From Phocaeicola plebeius (GTDB lineage: Bacteria > Bacteroidota > Bacteroidia > Bacteroidales > Bacteroidaceae): a stretch of DNA of 64,000 bases. Each line of letters starts with the position of its first letter. Position 1 is the first letter of the stretch. The notes below the pieces were generated by a model. The model saw only the letters and a program-made list of their open reading frames with translations, was not told where the DNA came from and searched no databases. The position numbers and the translations under genes are program-made. This document shows, in pieces, positions 1 to 9,219 of this stretch. The DNA lies in the NCBI GenBank assembly GCA_022767125.1, contig JALEPZ010000059.1:49080-113079 (forward strand), in the 5' to 3' direction.

Positions 1-1962
1 CTTTCCCCACGAGCCGCGGAGTTTCCATTCGTCCATCCAGTCGGCCTGGATGTGTTTCGAGAGGCGGTAGCCGAGGGTGATGGCCGGGAAGGTACCGTAG
101 CGGTTGTTACGGCCGAAGCGGGAGCTGCCGTCGCGACGGATAGTGAACGAGGCCAGTACGAGGTCTTTCCAGTTGTAGTCCACTTTCCCGAAGAACGATA
201 CCAGGGCGTAGCCTTCCTGTACGCCGGTAGAGCGGCGGGTGCCGGTGGAGGCGTCGGGCCACATGTAGTCATAGTCTTCGAGGGCGAAGTTCTCCGCATA
301 GCCCGAGAAGTCCACACTGTTCTGGCGGAAGAGTTCCATACCGGCCAGGAAGTTGAAGGTGTGTTCGTCCCAGAGGGTGGTGTTGTAGGTGGCGGTGTTC
401 GACCATGTCCATTCCAGTCTGTTGGCGTGGCTGAGGGTCACACTGGGCACGTTGTTGTTCACGATGTCCGAGTGGAAGGTCTGGTTCACCGAGTGGATGA
501 ACGACGAGGTGTGGTCAATACCGAAGTTGGAACGGAGCGTCAGTCCTTCGAGGGGCTTGATGTCGATGTAGGCGTTGCCGAACATGCGCCAGGTCTTCAG
601 GCGGTTGTTGCGGTTGTAATACAGTTCGCGAAGCGGGTTCTGGCGGTCGCTCATGCCCCCTACGGGACCGCTGAATGTCGTCCCGTCTTCTTCGTAGAGC
701 GGTACGGTGGGGGCCATCTTCAGGGCGTTCTCCATCGGATGGCTGTCCACCTGGGTGGTATAGGTCACGGTCAGGTTCTCGCCCACGGTGACCATCTTGT
801 TGACATTGTAGCTCATGTTCAGACGGGCGGAGATGTTGCTGAAGTCGGTGTACTTCAGGATGCCCTGATTGTTCTTGAAGCCCACGGAGAAGAGGGCGGA
901 ATACTTGTCGGTGGCGTTGGAGAGCGAGAGGTCATAGCTCTGCTGCAGGCCGGTGCGCGAGATGGCTTTCAGCCAGTCGGTGTCAGAGTAGCGCATGGTC
1001 TGCTTCTGGTTGATGTAGCCGCCGTAGAGGCCGTTTACTGTATATTCCTTGTACGAGCCGGTGGCAGGGTCGTAGGCCCGGATGGGCGTACCGCTGGCTG
1101 CCTGGAGATTCAGTCCGTAGTTGCCGGCGTAGGCGACAGGGTCCAGTCCGTCGTTCAGGGCGGCCTGTGCCATGGCGGTGGCATATTCCGCCGTGTTGCA
1201 GAGGTCCATGGTGGACTGCGAGGTATAGAACTGGGCGGTCAGGTTGGCCGAGAAGTCCACTTTCACCTTGTCGCCTTTCTTTCCTTTACGAGTAGTGATG
1301 ATGATGACACCGTTGGCGGCGCGCGATCCGTAGATGGAGGCCGAGGCGGCGTCCTTCAGCACCTGCATGCTTTCGATATCGTTCATGTTCAGCGAGTTCA
1401 GCGAGGCAGTCGTAGGCACACCGTCAATGATGTACAGTGGATCCTGCGAAGCGTTGAACGACCCGATACCACGGATGCGTACGGTACCCGTTCCCGAGGG
1501 AGATCCGTCGGTGGTTACGGTCATACCGGCCACTTTTCCCTGCAGGGCCCGCATCGGGTCGGTGTCGGCCGAGGTCTTCAGGTCCTTGGGTTGCACCACA
1601 GCCACCGAACCGGTCAGGTCGGCCTTGCGCTGGGTGGTATAGCCGGTCACCACCACTTCTCCCAGTGTTTGGGTGTCTTCCTGAAGGACGATGCGCAGGT
1701 TCGGTCCAGCTGTCACTTCTTGTGTCACATATCCCACATAACTGATGACCAAGGTGGCTCCTTTAGTGGCGTTGAGTTGGAAATTGCCGTCGAAGTCGGT
1801 GATGGTACCGTTCGTGGTGGCTTTTTCTTGTACGGTAGCGCCGATAATGGCCTCGCCGTTGGCGTCGGTCACTGTCCCGCTGACTTCCAGGGTTTGTGCG
1901 GCTGCGAGGGTGTAAGCCATCAGCAGCAGTGCGCTCAGCAAAAATCTTCTTACTGTTTCCAT
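1..1962 (-). CDS. SusC/RagA-family TonB-linked outer membrane protein, partial (runs off left edge)
   Basis: Minus-strand translation from ATG at 1962: METVRRFLLSALLLMAYTLAAAQTLEVSGTVTDANGEAIIGATVQEKATTNGTITDFDGNFQL...SYVGYVTQEV...GEVVVTGYTTQRKADLTGSV...plug domain; signal peptide plus CarboxypepD_reg-like domain. Absent from the ORF track because it is open to the window edge. Confidence 0.95.
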   Translation of the reverse strand, partial: METVRRFLLSALLLMAYTLAAAQTLEVSGTVTDANGEAIIGATVQEKATTNGTITDFDGNFQLNATKGATLVISYVGYVTQEVTAGPNLRIVLQEDTQTLGEVVVTGYTTQRKADLTGSVAVVQPKDLKTSADTDPMRALQGKVAGMTVTTDGSPSGTGTVRIRGIGSFNASQDPLYIIDGVPTTASLNSLNMNDIESMQVLKDAASASIYGSRAANGVIIITTRKGKKGDKVKVDFSANLTAQFYTSQSTMDLCNTAEYATAMAQAALNDGLDPVAYAGNYGLNLQAASGTPIRAYDPATGSYKEYTVNGLYGGYINQKQTMRYSDTDWLKAISRTGLQQSYDLSLSNATDKYSALFSVGFKNNQGILKYTDFSNISARLNMSYNVNKMVTVGENLTVTYTTQVDSHPMENALKMAPTVPLYEEDGTTFSGPVGGMSDRQNPLRELYYNRNNRLKTWRMFGNAYIDIKPLEGLTLRSNFGIDHTSSFIHSVNQTFHSDIVNNNVPSVTLSHANRLEWTWSNTATYNTTLWDEHTFNFLAGMELFRQNSVDFSGYAENFALEDYDYMWPDASTGTRRSTGVQEGYALVSFFGKVDYNWKDLVLASFTIRRDGSSRFGRNNRYGTFPAITLGYRLSKHIQADWMDEWKLRGSWGK

Positions 1963-2170
1963 AAGAAAAGGTTGTTTTGTTTGTTAATAATTAGGTTTTC
2001 AGAAAAGGTTCTTTTTAGTTATAACTAATCTGCCGCAAAAGTAGGGAGAAGGGGGCGGTGAGGTGGAAAAAAAACGTTCCGTGTCAGCAAAAAATGTTTC
2101 GATGTATCATTTCTTGCCGATATGGAACGAATTTTAGGGAGACGGACGATGAAAATGGGCAGAAGCAGGC

Positions 2171-3611
2171 TCATCCGAACAAGTCGTTCAGGGTGACGAC
2201 CCGCTGGAAGACACCACTGTGGATACCCTGCTTGAGGCCGTAGGTGGTCACTAAGGTCATCTGTACGGTTCTGCCGCTTGCCCATTTGTCCGCTGATCCA
2301 GTTCAGCCGCGTGCGCAGGGTCTGTTCGTAGTCGTTGCTCACGCTGAAGGGAGCGTTGACAAACTTCATCTCGCACACGTTGACCACCCGGTCCTCCCGC
2401 GAGATGATGAGGTCAATCTGCATGCCCGGGTGCTCGTCGGTGCCCTGGAGGTTCCATCCGGAGGCTTCGCAGGCGACTCCTGTGATGCCCAGCGCACGCT
2501 TGACTCCTTCCAGATGGACCAGACAGGCATTCTCGAAGGCTCTTCCCCGCCAGGTGTTCAGCTGGGGCAGGTTCTCGTGGTCCTGCCAGAAGGTGTGGCT
2601 TCTTCCCTTTCCCTCCACCTGTTCCAGGTAGAACAGGCAGAACGGGTCGGTCAGCCGGTACAGCAGCTGGCGCTTGCTGTTCCCGAAGGGGCGGTAGCAT
2701 TCGATGAAGTCGCTGGCCTCCAACGTGCGGAGCAGGGTGGTCAGTCCTTTCCCTGATTCGATGCCTGTCTGTTGGCTGATTTCCTCCCGGCTGCATCCCT
2801 GCCGGTGCCGGGCCAGTAGGGTGACGACGGTCTTGTACCGTTCCGGCGAGCTGAAGATGGAGTTGAACAAGCGGGTGAATTCCATCTTCAGCTTGGCCTT
2901 CTTCGAGAAGAACAGCTCGTCGATGGTCTGTGCCAGACTGAGTCCCGGACGCACATAGCTGATGTACATGGGAATGCCGCCGAGGGTCATGTACAGTTGC
3001 AGGATGTCGTACCGGCTCATGGTGACTCCCTGTTGGGTCAGCAGTCGTTCGGTTTCCGACAAGGTGAACGGCGATAGCTGCAGTTCGGCGTTCACCCGGT
3101 CGTACAGTCCGCCATACGAATTGATGAGGTTGTCCTTTATCCACGAGGTGGCCGAACCGCAGACAATCAACAGCAGCTGGTCTTGTTCGGCTCCCCATCC
3201 GTTCCAAAAATGCTCAAAGGCGGTGATGAAGCCCGCACGCTGGGTGTCCATCCAAGGCATTTCGTCGATGAAGACCACTTGTCGTTCGTCTGTGTCCTTT
3301 TGGAGCAGCAGCGTACGCAGGCGGTCGAAGGCTTCCTGCCAGTTCGAGGGAGGCGTGGTGGCCTCCAGTCCGTAAAGGACAAGGCTGGAGTGGAAGGCCA
3401 GTAGCTGGGCCGACAGCAGGCTTTTCCCTTTCAGCTCGACAGGCGACAGCCCTGTGTGATAGAAGGCGAAACGGTTCTTGAACACTTCCCGTACGAGGAA
3501 GGTTTTCCCCACCCGCCGGCGTCCATAGACGGCGACCAGTTGTGCCTGATGCAGGTGGAAGAGGCGCATCAGTTCCTCCTGTTCTTGCTTTCTTCCGATA
3601 ATGTTGCTCAT
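2171..3611 (-). pseudogene. AAA ATPase (archaeal-type ATPase, DUF234-like C-terminus) with a late frameshift
   Basis: MSNIIGRKQEQEELMRLFHLHQAQLVAVYGRRRVGKTFLVREVF (Walker A), VVFIDEMPWMD (Walker B). The frame reads ...KRQNRTDDLSDHLR, while the shifted frame gives the expected family ending MTLVTTYGLKQGIHSGVFQRVVTLNDLFG*. The span 2171..3611 is 1441 nt, not a multiple of 3. Confidence 0.8.
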
Positions 3612-3746
3612 ACTGTTGTCCGTTAGTGGTTGGATATGAAGCTGTAAAGTAACGGATTCTTTCGCTGACCACCAAGCGGGACGGTGCTTATTTGTCCACG
3701 AACGCACTAAATACCCGTTTCGTGGACGAATAAGGAACTTCGGAAC

Positions 3747-6020
3747 TCAGCTTCTCCACTCGCCCGGACTCTTGCCGTACTCGTCCTTGAAGCACTTGGC
3801 AAAGTAGGAGGGAGCACTGAACCCTGTGTCGTAGGCGATTTCGGAAATGGACTTGTCGGTGGTTTCCAACAGTCGGCGGGCCTTCTCCACACGCGACTTG
3901 CGCAACAGTTCCACGGGCGACAGGCCGGTCAGTGCCTTGGTCTTCCGGTAGAGCTGTACACGGCTCATGCCGATTTCTTCGCCGATGCGCTCCACGCTGA
4001 AGTCCGCGTCGGCCAGGTGCTGCTGGATGATGCCGCGCAGGCGTTCCACAAAATTGCTGTCGCGGTCGTCGGCGGCCGGAACGGCAACGGGCTTCTCCGC
4101 TGTCAGTCCTTTGCTGAACACCCGCCGCAGCGTACGCCGGGAGGCCAGCAGGTTGTCGATGCGGGCGGTCAGTACGGAGGCGGTGAATGGCTTGGTGATG
4201 TAAGCGTCCGCCCCATGGGCGTAGCCCTCCACCCGTTGTTCCTCCAGCGTGCGTGCGGTGAGCATCAGCACGGGGATGTGACAGGTCACAGGGTCCCGCT
4301 TCACTTCGCTGCACATCTCCAGTCCGTCCATGACGGGCATCATCACATCACTCACAATCAGGTCGGGGACAATCCGCCGTGCTTCTTTCAGCCCTTCCTT
4401 GCCGTCGGCGGCCAGGGTCACGTGGTGGTGTTCTTGCAATAGGGTCTTGACCAGCAGGCGCACGTCGGGATTGTCGTCCACCACCAGCACTTCAGGCAGC
4501 TCACCGTCCGGCTTGTCCGTTGCCTCGACAATTCTTCCGGCGGTGGTCGATGCGGGGGCGGCAGGCTCTTCCGGCAGGTCGCCGAGCTGTTCCGTACCGA
4601 TTTTCCGGAAGTCCAGTATCTCATCGACCAGCTGCTTCAGCCGTTCCAGGTTGCGGTGCATCATCTCCACGAGCTGCCGCTGCGGACCTTTCAGGCTCTT
4701 GTCCGCCGCCAATTGTTCGGCAGGACCGGCGATGAGGGTGAGGGGGGTGCGCAGCTTATGGCCTACGTTCGTAAAGAACACTAACCGGGCGTCGGCCATG
4801 TCCTCCAGCTGCTTGTACAGCTGTTGCAGTTCGTCGTTGCGTTGCTCCAGTTGCTGGTTCAGCTGCTGTTGTTCTACGTTGAGTTGCTGCAGCTCCTCGT
4901 TGAGGCGCGACTTGGTCACGTAGGCCCGGAAGGCGATGACCGACAGAGCCATGATGAGCACGACCAGCAGGAGGAAGAAGGTGATGACCTTCCGCTGTAC
5001 GTTTACCTGCGAGAAGTATGTGTCCAGTTTGCGATGGACCGTTTCCAGCTCCCCGCTCACCCGCTGCTGCTCGCGGTACTGCATCTTCAGCAGTTCTGCG
5101 TTGCGGATATCGACCACTGCCGAGTGCAGCAGGTTGTTGCGCTCAAAGGGTTGCCCGTTCAGGATGCGGAGTGCCAGTTGCGTCAGCTCCAGGCCTTGGG
5201 TGGGATAGATATAGGTGGCCTGCAGGATACCGTCCAGCACAAGGTCGATGCCGCCGCCGGGCGTGGGCAGTGCGTCCACCCCGTAGTAGCGGATGTCCTG
5301 TTGCCCGTGTTCCATCGCCAACTGCCGGGCGCCCATGGCCAGTCGGTCGTTGTGTCCGAACAGGCAGTCGATGTCCAGGTCGGGATGCAGCCGCAGGATC
5401 TCCTCCATGGCCGCCCGCCCGCTCAGCTCCGTCCAGTCGCCCAGTTCGGAGGAGACCAGTTGGATGTCGGGATAGTCGGCCAGTGCCTCCAGAAAGCCTC
5501 GGTGGCGCTCAATGGCGGGCGAAGACCCCTTCAGTCCTGTAATCTCCACCAAGGTCCCCTTCCGCTCCATCTGTTCGGCGATGAGGTGTCCCATGGTGTG
5601 CCCGATTTCGTAGTTGTCGGCTCCCATGTAGGCAGTGTATTTGTCGCTGTTGGTCTTCCGGTCGAAGAGGATGACGGGGATGCCCCGGTCGTAGGCCTCA
5701 TCGACGACGGCGGAGAGGGTGGAGGCCTGGTTGGGAGCCACGATGAGCAGGTCCACCTTTTCTTCGATGAAATGGCGCACCTGTTCTATCTGCCTCTGGT
5801 CGTTGTCTTCAGCCGAGAGGAACTCCAGGTACACGTTGTTGTTGGCATAGCCGCCGATGGTCAGCTCGCGGTTCTGCTTGTTGCGCCAGATGTCCTCGCT
5901 GCATTGTGAAACGCCGATGTGCCACTGCTTCTCGCTCCGATTGCACGAAAGGCAGAGGAGGGCCAGCAGTACCGTCATCAGGACGGGGAGGCGGAACGAT
6001 AGGGTAGAGTAGTGTCTCAT
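3747..6020 (-). CDS. Hybrid two-component regulator: periplasmic sugar-binding (PBP/LacI-like) sensor + TM + HisKA + REC + AraC HTH, lacking HATPase_c
   Basis: MRHYSTLSFRLPVLMTVLLALLCLSCNRSEKQWHIGVSQCSEDIWR (lipoprotein-like signal, PBP fold), TM VITFFLLLVVLIMALSVIAF, H-box FFTNVGHKLRTPLTLI, REC VLVVDDNPDVR...IVSDVMMPVMDG...KPF, AraC HTH at the C-terminus. No N/G1/G2 boxes between HisKA and REC. Confidence 0.9.
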   Translation of the reverse strand: MRHYSTLSFRLPVLMTVLLALLCLSCNRSEKQWHIGVSQCSEDIWRNKQNRELTIGGYANNNVYLEFLSAEDNDQRQIEQVRHFIEEKVDLLIVAPNQASTLSAVVDEAYDRGIPVILFDRKTNSDKYTAYMGADNYEIGHTMGHLIAEQMERKGTLVEITGLKGSSPAIERHRGFLEALADYPDIQLVSSELGDWTELSGRAAMEEILRLHPDLDIDCLFGHNDRLAMGARQLAMEHGQQDIRYYGVDALPTPGGGIDLVLDGILQATYIYPTQGLELTQLALRILNGQPFERNNLLHSAVVDIRNAELLKMQYREQQRVSGELETVHRKLDTYFSQVNVQRKVITFFLLLVVLIMALSVIAFRAYVTKSRLNEELQQLNVEQQQLNQQLEQRNDELQQLYKQLEDMADARLVFFTNVGHKLRTPLTLIAGPAEQLAADKSLKGPQRQLVEMMHRNLERLKQLVDEILDFRKIGTEQLGDLPEEPAAPASTTAGRIVEATDKPDGELPEVLVVDDNPDVRLLVKTLLQEHHHVTLAADGKEGLKEARRIVPDLIVSDVMMPVMDGLEMCSEVKRDPVTCHIPVLMLTARTLEEQRVEGYAHGADAYITKPFTASVLTARIDNLLASRRTLRRVFSKGLTAEKPVAVPAADDRDSNFVERLRGIIQQHLADADFSVERIGEEIGMSRVQLYRKTKALTGLSPVELLRKSRVEKARRLLETTDKSISEIAYDTGFSAPSYFAKCFKDEYGKSPGEWRS

Positions 6021-6033
6021 AGATAGGATAGGT

Positions 6034-6624
6034 TTACATAGTACATAATTCTTCCACTTGTTTCTCGAAATCTTCTTTTTGTCGGGCCCGGTTCTTGACG
6101 GCGCTGCGGTAATCCTGTCGGTAGTACGTGGGGGCATAGACCTGGTCGTCGGAGTATTCCGCCCACATGCTGTAGGCCCATTCATACGCCGTGTAGTAGT
6201 CCACCCGCCGTTCCAGCAGGAGGGTGGCGGAGGAGATGGCTTGCAAGTTCTGGACGGATTCGCTGAAGTAGCCGGCAGTGGCCAGCAGTACAGAGCGATG
6301 GATGCGGCAGAGGTTCTGCAGGTCAGTGTCGTTCAAGGCTTCGGCTAGTTCCGTTTCCTGCTTGACGTAGTGCATGGCGGAGTCGAACCGATAGGTATGG
6401 TATTCCTCATAGATGGACTGACACCAGCGGAAACGGTCGCGCAGGTCCATGTCCGGATGGAACTGCCGTTTCAGGCTGTCAATGCGTGCTTCTTTCTGCC
6501 GGGTGAAGACAGCACGCCGTCCCAATACCCGCTCCAGTTCGGCGAAGACCGGGTGCCGGGCGTGGGCGTCCAGAAAGCAGAAGACGCATCCCAGAAAGAT
6601 TCCTATTAACAAAGGTTGTCTCAT
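6034..6624 (-). CDS. Short DUF6377/TPR-like regulatory protein, probably truncated
   Basis: MRQPLLIGIFLGCVFCFLDAHARHPVFAELERVLGRRAVFTRQKEARIDSLKRQF...; resembles the N-terminal third of DUF6377-type proteins next to PUL regulators. Ends ...EELCTM* 13 nt before the hybrid regulator start. Confidence 0.55.
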   Translation of the reverse strand: MRQPLLIGIFLGCVFCFLDAHARHPVFAELERVLGRRAVFTRQKEARIDSLKRQFHPDMDLRDRFRWCQSIYEEYHTYRFDSAMHYVKQETELAEALNDTDLQNLCRIHRSVLLATAGYFSESVQNLQAISSATLLLERRVDYYTAYEWAYSMWAEYSDDQVYAPTYYRQDYRSAVKNRARQKEDFEKQVEELCTM

Positions 6625-6651
6625 ATCATTCAGGTCATTGTGTGTCGCTGG

Positions 6652-6659
6652 CAAAGATA
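6652..6659 (-). promoter_or_regulatory. Bacteroidetes-type -7 box (TATCTTTG) upstream of the DUF6377-like/hybrid regulator pair
   Basis: + strand caaagata = minus TATCTTTG, matching the TAnnTTTG consensus; about 30 nt upstream of the start codon. Confidence 0.45.
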
Positions 6660-6924
6660 GCAATTGTTTTGAAATTACCATCGAATGTCACGGTTTTTTT
6701 AGCATGCATTCGCATGAAACATTTTTTGTATCTACTTGGATTTATCGGAATAATATTTGTAATAGATTGTATTACAATACTATAAAATCCTTTGATTCCT
6801 ACTGGCAGCCTACCTGTATGCTACTGTCCCCTCCAAATATGCCTGTTCATTCGCAACTTTGCATCAGCGGGTCGGAAATCTCCCAGACCCCTGCGGAATA
6901 CGAGTTATGTGTGTAATAAGATAA

Positions 6925-8106
6925 GTTCAGGAAACAGGTAAGAAGGAGGCGAAAAACCTGGGGGTGGATATGTTCCTGCTCGATGACGGCTGGTTCGGCA
7001 ACGGTGAGAACGCCCGCAACCACGACCGTGCCGGACTAGGCGACTGGGAGGTGAACCACGCCAAGCTGCCCAAGGGCATCGGGGAGCTGTGCGACGCTGC
7101 CACGGAGGCTGGTGTGAAGTTCGGCATCTGGATAGAGCCGGAAATGGTGAACCCCCGTTCCGAACTCTATGCGAAACATCCCGAATGGGTCATCCGCCAG
7201 CCCAACCGGGAGACGTACTACTACCGTAACCAGTTGGTGCTGGACCTGAGCAACCCCGAGGTACAGGACTATGTGTTTTCGGTGGTGGACCGTATCCTGA
7301 CCGAGCATCCCCGCGTGGCGTACTTCAAGTGGGACTGCAACTCGCCCATTACCAATGTCTATAGTCCGTACCTGAAAGAACGGCAGGGGCAGCTGTATGT
7401 GGACCATGCCCGGGGCGTGACAGAGGTGATGCGCCGCGTGAAGGAGAAATACCCTGATGTGCCGATGATGCTCTGCTCGGGCGGTGGCGCCCGTTGCGAT
7501 TACGAGGCGTTGAAATACTTCACCGAGTTCTGGTGCAGCGACAATACCGACCCCATCGAGCGGTGCTACATCCAGTGGGGATTCTCGCAGTTCTTTCTTG
7601 CCAAGGCCATGTGCGCCCATGTGACGAGCTGGAACAAGACGGCTTCCGTGAAATTCCGTACCGATGTGGCGTCGATGTGTAAGTTGGGCTTTGACCTGGG
7701 GCTGAAGGACCTTACTCCCGATGATCTGGCGTATTGCCAGACGGCGGTCGCCAACTGGAAACGGTTGCAGCCGGTCATCCTTGACGGCTGTCAATACAGG
7801 CTGGTGTCGCCCTATGAGTCTGCCCACATGGCGGTGAGCTATGTCAGCGAGGGACGTGACCAGGCCGTACTCTTCGCCTACGACCTCCATCCGCGCTTTG
7901 CCGAGAAGACGTTGCCGGTCCGTCTGGAGGGACTGGACCCTGACGGTCACTACTTGGTGCAGGAAATCAACCTGCTGCCGTCGGCCGCTTCTTCGCTGAA
8001 GGAGAACGGTCAGGTCTTCACGGGCGATTACCTGATGAAGGTCGGTCTGAACGTGTTCCGCAGCCGGCATCTGCAAAGCCGTGTGATTGAGCTGGTAAGG
8101 CAGTGA
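6925..8106 (+). pseudogene. Alpha-galactosidase (GH36), 5'-truncated
   Basis: Open frame begins right after TAA (6922-6924): VQETGKKEAKNLGVDMFLLDDGWFGNGENARNHDRAGLGDWEVN...YFKWDCNSPITNVYSPYL...CSGGGARCDYE...; catalytic (beta/alpha)8 part and C-terminus present, N-terminal beta-sandwich (about 300 aa) missing. Confidence 0.8.
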
Positions 8107-8326: not shown

Positions 8327-9219
8327 ATGAGAAATGTCATCATCTTTCTATTCTTTTGTTTTTGTTACCTGAGCACGAAGGCGACAGAAAGAGAAATAAA
8401 GGTAGTCGGGACTACACTTGCCGATATGGCCAGTGCAGTGGATGTTCTCGGACAACAAGCTGGCATTGATTTCGTGAACAACAAGATAATATCGCCCGGA
8501 TGTTCGACTGTCCGGACTCCCTCATCGGCGAGTGTTGCGATGCCATCCGCATCTACAGTGTGGCGTTTTGGCTCTTCTGCCTGCTGTATCTGCTAATGGT
8601 CAACTACAAGCTGCTGCAACGCTCTGCCTTGGCCAACTTCATCTCCTTTTCGCTCAACCTGTCGGTCATTCCTGTCATTTGGACGCTGTCCGTAGTGTCA
8701 CCCGACATCATCTGGTGGAGCAATATGATTGCCTATGCTCTCGTTATGCTGGTGGTGATCGTTATGGCTGAGGCTGCACGCAGGAAGGACAAGGGACTTT
8801 CGCCGTTGACACTCCTGCCCAAATCGACGCCTTTCCCCACTTTCGAACTTTCGTTTAAGTATTCTATTGAAGACATGGGCAACTGCTTCAACGAGATAAG
8901 CCAATGGCTGAAAGAGCAGTCGTTGGACGACGACACCGTGTTCAAGGTGAGGATAATAGCCGAGGAACTGATGTCAAACGTTGCTGAGCATGGTAAAGTG
9001 AAGAGCAGGAAAGCTTTCATCGACATTCGAATCCTTCTTCAGCCCCAGAAGGTGATCCTGTCCATTGCCGACGACAGCACACCTTTCGACACGGTGGCCA
9101 ACAAGGACAAGGGGCTTGGCCTGACAGTCGCCAATGCCATCCCCTACCGCCTTGACTACAAGCACCAGTTTGGGCAGAACATCACCACCGCCACCCTTCT
9201 TTACTCTCGTCCATCCTGA
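8327..9219 (+). pseudogene. Composite/truncated region: secreted N-terminal fragment followed by MATE-like membrane fragment + RsbW-like HATPase
   Basis: Frame 1: MRNVIIFLFFCFCYLSTKATEREIKVVGTTLADMASAVDVLGQQAGIDFVNN. A different frame from about 8470: FREQQDNIARMFDCPDSLIGECCDAIRIYS + about 4 TM helices, then IIAEELMSNVAEHG...DDSTPFDT...GLGLTVANAI (RsbW/HATPase_c_2-like). Confidence 0.5.

Follow-up and report, generated by a model that had tools for sequence, protein, structure and literature searches.

Loss of the kinase domain from a BT1754-type hybrid regulator at a Phocaeicola fructan locus, with sequence evidence for a reduced class of regulators in Bacteroidales

The window (the whole stretch of DNA analysed, 64,000 nucleotides) contains a gene for a hybrid regulator in which a phosphoacceptor histidine and a receiver domain are joined on one chain with no ATPase domain between them. 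Two questions are raised by this locus: whether the gap in the protein is genuine and, if it is, what the remaining parts of the relay would do in a regulator unable to phosphorylate itself. An earlier note had proposed phosphorylation in trans by another hybrid kinase or signalling without phosphotransfer. The features discussed are listed below, with residues numbered as in P0001 (758 residues, one extra residue upstream of the ATG at 6018-6020).

3747..6020, minus strand: gene for the kinase-less hybrid regulator, 757 amino acids, PBP-TM-DHp-REC-HTH_18 (open frame, Pfam, AlphaFold2)
5151..5819, minus strand: Peripla_BP_4 sugar-sensor domain, BT1754-like, residues 69-291 (Pfam, E 6e-43)
4923..4991, minus strand: transmembrane helix, approximate, residues ~345-367 (hydrophobic stretch in the sequence, inside the predicted helix 309-439)
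4593..4784, minus strand: HisKA/DHp, residues 414-477, H-box GHKLRTP (Pfam, E 1e-13)
4758..4760, minus strand: codon of the phosphoacceptor His422, with Lys423 at His+1 and Thr426 at His+4 (alignment of relatives)
4491..4598, minus strand: linker, residues 476-511, in the place of HATPase_c, with the deletion junction (length comparison, model)
4158..4490, minus strand: REC, residues 512-622, catalytic residues intact, lock motif CHIP (Pfam, alignment)
4347..4349, minus strand: codon of the REC phosphoacceptor Asp559 (invariant in alignment A1)
3753..3980, minus strand: HTH_18 (AraC-type) DNA-binding domain, residues 682-757 (Pfam)
2025..3707, minus strand: ATPase_2/AAA ORF between the regulator and SusC, with no part in the proposed mechanism
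1..1983, minus strand: SusC gene of the fructan locus (L140), extending past the window edge

The regulator frame runs from the ATG at 6018-6020 to the stop at 3747 with no internal stop and encodes 757 residues, all in one frame as the earlier note had stated. The domain scan proposed in that note found Peripla_BP_4, HisKA, Response_reg and HTH_18/HTH_AraC, each above its cut-off, and HATPase_c was not among the 25 families listed at E<=1. An HMM built from the CA (HATPase_c) domain of 30 full-length homologues gave no match in the regulator with all filters off. The distance from the end of HisKA to REC is 36 residues, against 195-231 in the full-length homologues. The AlphaFold2 model (mean pLDDT 84) has one long helix (309-439) spanning the membrane segment and the H-box, a second DHp helix (447-473), and intact REC and HTH domains; between the normal DHp and the normal REC lies only a disordered linker (471-506, pLDDT ~35). 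A hidden or displaced CA domain is ruled out by the filters-off search together with the model, and the clean absence of HATPase_c is confirmed. The best solved match to the sensor is PDB 2x7x (E 2e-87 over residues 34-344), which is the BT1754 sensor. In 35 aligned regulators the Cys at position 27, where the signal peptide ends, does not vary, which suggests an N-terminal lipid anchor on the sensor.

What is left of the relay is well preserved. His422 and Asp559 are both intact in the alignment of relatives, as had been claimed, and the REC domain keeps its catalytic residues and a normal predicted fold. The H-box is indeed altered, reading GHKLRTP where all 104 full-length relatives have SH[D/E]. 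The S/CHIP-DK motif, defined in HTCSs as a lock between REC and the DNA-binding domain (PMC11253607), is present, with CHIP in REC, the Asp in alpha6 and the Lys in alpha8. The periplasmic sensor, transmembrane helix, HisKA, REC and HTH_18 of an HTCS are thus found on one chain, and the HATPase_c domain and the SH[D/E]xxTP H-box are not. Since HATPase_c is missing, the regulator is a kinase-less derivative and not a standard HTCS, and the expected inability to phosphorylate itself from ATP is supported by the lack of the catalytic domain.

After the regulator, the same strand carries the ATPase_2 ORF, SusC, SusD, GH32, an MFS transporter and a PfkB-type sugar kinase, the last four outside the window (L140). 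A COG1879-like PBP sensor at a SusC/SusD/GH32/sugar-kinase locus is the arrangement of a BT1754-type fructan PUL. The ATPase_2/AAA ORF has no counterpart at the corresponding place in genome G052, and its C-terminal part reads as though frameshifted. On the other side of the regulator, a 215-residue ORF (6034-6681, minus strand) has no Pfam match, and the Melibiase match of a GH36 ORF (6964-8106, plus strand) begins only at profile position 73; these two are possibly remnants of decayed genes. Farther out, about 2.5 kb from the regulator, an ORF at 8500-9219 (plus strand) begins with hydrophobic segments and ends in a HATPase_c_2 domain, and is presumably anti-sigma-like.

We consider it very improbable that the regulator itself represents a decaying allele or an error of assembly. 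The damaged-looking neighbours (ORFs 2025-3707, 6034-6681 and 6964-8106) and the fragmentation of the genome into 125 contigs would fit such an explanation, but the identical architecture recurs in other genomes, in isolates and in a single-contig genome. The gene in G040 is 100% identical and the orthologue in G052 is 72% identical, and both lack the CA domain; apart from these two Phocaeicola genomes, about 60 other Bacteroidales regulators are without HATPase_c. The remaining matching Phocaeicola genomes carry a full-length relative of about 39-45% identity. The closest CA-bearing relative seen (L183) shares 60% identity over residues 18-477 and is ended by a contig edge. Members of the kinase-less group include the isolates Hoylesella loescheii An865, Prevotella sp. 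AGR2160 and P. ruminicola KHT3, and one lies in a single-contig genome (G202). Active sites are intact, and dN/dS is low in every domain of the CA-less regulators. For HisKA the median in pairs of kinase-less proteins is 0.09, matching the 0.08 of the PBP and HTH domains, which makes neutral decay unlikely; by this measure the regulator gene is under purifying selection. Assembly error and pseudogene were rejected on the conserved copies, the isolates, the single-contig genome and the low dN/dS, and the junction questioned in the earlier note is genuine.

From genome searches and fetched regions, 212 distinct PBP-type regulators carrying an HTH domain were collected, a sample of top matches and not a census. 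HMM classification separates them into three architectures: full-length PBP-HisKA-CA-REC-HTH (F, 104/212), kinase-less PBP-HisKA-REC-HTH (K, 62/212), and relay-less PBP-HTH with a transmembrane segment (T, 46/212); no fourth architecture was found among them. The ORF lengths of the 146 distinct matches listed for the genus of G202 are 490-640 aa in 70 cases, 720-812 aa in 43 and at least 870 aa in 33, one 640-aa frame (L183) being a truncated F. The T proteins, which have no HisKA, HATPase or REC and seem to be one-component regulators that span the membrane and stem from hybrid sensors, lie mostly beside SusC (for example L060:56-1603, L134:1063-2967 and L226:5041-6549, with 43 other loci), and two come from single-contig genomes (G906, G807). 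In loci with enough flank, SusC is within 1.5 kb of the regulator in 37/55 K loci and 15/16 T loci. Kinase-less and relay-less regulators are found close together in one locus in L215 (1447-3030 and 4003-6297) and in L248 (4938-7118 and 8476-10077).

A tree of the PBP, TM and HTH parts cannot be explained with fewer than 13-15 changes of architecture between F, K and T. When only well-supported branches are counted, the minimum is 6-8 changes for K and 9-10 for T, and trees of the PBP or HTH domain alone likewise need many changes. In the AU test a single clade is rejected both for K and T together (p 2e-106) and for T by itself (p 4e-52), and a single ancestral loss was rejected on this ground. 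The window protein groups with the K proteins L022 and L130 and the T proteins L060, L134, L184, L187 and L200, and the F members L186 and L193 stand beside this group. Taken at face value the tree implies repeated losses of the CA domain, the apparent number of which could be inflated by recombination restoring CA or by exchange of cytoplasmic domains between paralogues. As judged from the tree and the alignments, the regulator is one member of a widespread, repeatedly evolved CA-less class at fructan loci.

Traces of the relay persist in some of the T proteins. An apparent vestige of the DHp start, NEEQTLFYTDAS or a variant of it, occupies the former place of the H-box in L174, L176, L177 and L178 and in the second regulators L215:1447-3030 and L248:8476-10077, so that at least these six descend from DHp-bearing ancestors. 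In the lock, REC is contacted by an acid in alpha6, which occurs in 104/104 F and 55/62 K proteins and in only 24/46 T proteins, a frequent loss that is expected once REC is gone. These observations are consistent with a stepwise and repeated stripping of the phosphorelay from a fructan sensor of gut Bacteroidales, a two-component-to-one-component series that we propose tentatively, with a little less than even confidence. Loss of the ATPase domain would first give a phosphatase-only sensor-regulator fed by phosphate from outside, and loss of DHp and REC would then give a membrane-spanning one-component regulator. The kinase-less state is not confined to fructose-type sensors, since four propeller/Y_Y_Y-type hybrid regulators also lack CA (L101:1345-5268; L106:3247-7071, from Segatella baroniae B14; L107:3238-7128; L109:3118-7131; the domain loss checked by Pfam for L101 and L106). 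Their H-box, [S/G]HKLRTP, shares the Lys of the window protein, and the loss in this other sensor class is a parallel one.

The pattern of residues kept and lost in the K class bears on what the remaining domains may do. All 62 proteins keep the phospho-His, Thr+4 and Pro+5 and, in REC, the phospho-Asp, Lys and Pro; the remaining catalytic positions of REC are unchanged in 61/62, and the deviations are D-to-E or T-to-S. On the REC side of the S/CHIP lock, His and Pro are kept in 62/62. Within DHp the H-box and REC-docking positions (F416, T418, H422, T426, P427, L428, T429, L430, G433, P434, N458 and L462) stay above 90% conserved in the CA-less class. The hinge to the lost CA domain (LDFRK) is released at I469, D471, F472, R473, K474 and K479. 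Every F protein (104/104) has the acid at His+1, and 29/62 K proteins have it as Glu, which refutes the idea that CA loss is always accompanied by loss of the acid. In the other 33 it is replaced by Gln (27), Lys (2), His, Ser, Arg or Met (1 each); among close relatives of the window protein, His is found in the 72% orthologue (G052) and Arg in L130. The difference between K and F is strong when relatedness is ignored (Fisher 6e-18). On the tree there are 11 changes at this position and none in F lineages (rough p 2e-5, with 33 units of branch length for F against 19), and independent phylogenetic contrasts offer 3 pairs only (p 0.25).

In HisKA proteins the acid at His+1 is needed for the kinase and not for the phosphatase reaction, and the reverse holds for Thr or Asn at His+4 (PMC3510030). 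In CrdS, E-to-Q is among the kinase-dead changes and E372 mutants retain full phosphatase activity, and NtrB E140Q behaves as kinase-minus (PMC3510030); the commonest natural replacement, Gln, is the change already tested in the laboratory. Phosphatase activity was assayed and seen for the isolated DHp of HK853 (PMC5727384); a study cited there, Zhu et al. 2000, reports by its title phosphatase activity for EnvZ minus its catalytic domain. The window protein has the kinase-minus/phosphatase-plus pattern, with no acid at His+1 and Thr at His+4. Frequent loss of a kinase-only residue together with strict retention of a phosphatase-only residue predicts natural phosphatase-only sensors.

Phosphorylation in trans, in which mixed dimers with a full hybrid kinase would allow the CA domain of the latter to phosphorylate His422 and from there REC, finds some footing in the intact His and REC Asp and in the 29/62 K proteins with Glu at His+1. 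In the genome of the window there is also a PBP-type hybrid sensor of full length (L002, 37% identity), besides several other hybrid regulators. We nevertheless regard it as improbable, because the acid is gone in the window protein (Lys, with His and Arg in the relatives named above) and no kinase gene is consistently adjacent. The most common change in the class, E-to-Q, is kinase-dead elsewhere (PMC3510030), and the class no longer conserves the hinge motif between DHp and CA. We also rejected a partner kinase from a neighbouring gene, as a CA-bearing ORF is near the regulator in only two kinase-less loci; in L255 it is a kinase with its own periplasmic sensor and in L265 it is on the opposite strand. 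The HATPase_c_2 ORF at 8500-9219 was dismissed as a partner, being separated from the regulator by the unrelated GH36 ORF.

That His, Thr+4 and the catalytic residues of REC are so strictly kept argues for a continuing role of REC phosphorylation chemistry, probably through phosphatase or scaffold control of a REC that receives its phosphate from outside. The explanation we favour, with about an even chance of being right, is a fructose-gated phosphatase or scaffold acting on such a REC. The regulator would have arisen from a BT1754-type hybrid two-component sensor by a clean in-frame loss of HATPase_c. Its periplasmic domain would bind a fructan-derived sugar, probably fructose, and binding would alter how the retained DHp dimer is packed. 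This domain would no longer form phospho-His from ATP and would serve as a docking and dephosphorylating partner (kinase-minus, phosphatase-plus) of its own tethered REC, which may receive phosphate from elsewhere, such as acetyl phosphate or the phospho-His of another hybrid sensor; acetate kinase is encoded in the genome. The sugar state would then set the level of REC~P, leading to release of the AraC domain and activation of the SusC/SusD/GH32 genes. Some points speak against phosphatase control: the His+1 acid is still present in 29/62 CA-less proteins, the retention of Thr+4 and Pro+5 could be explained by helix structure, and the existence of T relatives at the same kind of locus suggests that signalling there needs neither REC nor DHp.

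The last point leads to a purely mechanical explanation, in which sugar binding would reorient the membrane-spanning dimer and thereby, directly and without phosphate, the HTH domains, with DHp and REC serving as dimerization and spacer modules. It draws on the 46 distinct PBP-TM-HTH relatives in which DHp, CA and REC are all gone, on their position (15/16 beside SusC, where flank suffices), and on the DHp fossil that marks descent of some from DHp-bearing forms. Mechanics alone, however, would not require the REC-side lock, nor the phospho-His, Thr+4 and REC Asp that are invariant in all 62 kinase-less proteins, and the regulatory role of the T forms is itself putative. For the window protein we consider this explanation the main rival of phosphatase control, though less likely. 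Of the two proposals in the earlier note, then, transfer in trans is disfavoured and signalling without phosphotransfer is possible, the retained His, Thr+4 and REC residues speaking against it.

Among the glycan regulators of gut Bacteroidales, hybrid sensors form a major class, and ATP-driven phosphotransfer is generally assumed to be how they work; common loss of the kinase questions whether such sensors need it at all. The natural series of full, kinase-less and relay-less forms, with one sensor and at one kind of locus, makes the relay steps that are needed directly testable. For annotation, genomes reported without a contiguous hybrid regulator at the inulin locus, as Segatella copri DSM18205 was (PMC11784079), may contain one in reduced form. 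Searches of open-access papers yielded no account of kinase-less or PBP-TM-HTH forms; the kinase-less class appears to be new within the HTCS, and the T class is a further step.

The closest known system is BT1754 (HTCS_Fru), the fructose-sensing hybrid two-component system of B. thetaiotaomicron (PMC3404733), described as the only HTCS of that species with a PBP-type sensor (PMC3878776). The window protein shares with it the sensor type, transmembrane helix, HisKA, REC and HTH_18 in one chain and the SusC/SusD/GH32 fructan locus, and differs in lacking HATPase_c and in having Lys in place of the His+1 acid. For BT4236 and other non-consensus HTCSs a departure from phosphorelay signalling has been proposed (PMC11253607), which makes them similar in kind; in BT4236, however, the phospho-His is reportedly lost to Gln (PMC11253607), whereas here the His is kept and CA is lost. 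Like the DHp fragments of EnvZ and HK853, the window protein has a HisKA dimerization domain without CA and with Thr or Asn at His+4, but those fragments are engineered and act on a separate regulator, while the DHp of the window protein occurs naturally without CA, on one chain with its own REC and output domain. The ToxR/CadC-type regulators are transmembrane one-component proteins, and the PBP-TM-HTH relatives resemble them in consisting of a sensor, a transmembrane segment and a DNA-binding domain only. Their sensor and HTH families are different, and the window protein itself retains DHp and REC.
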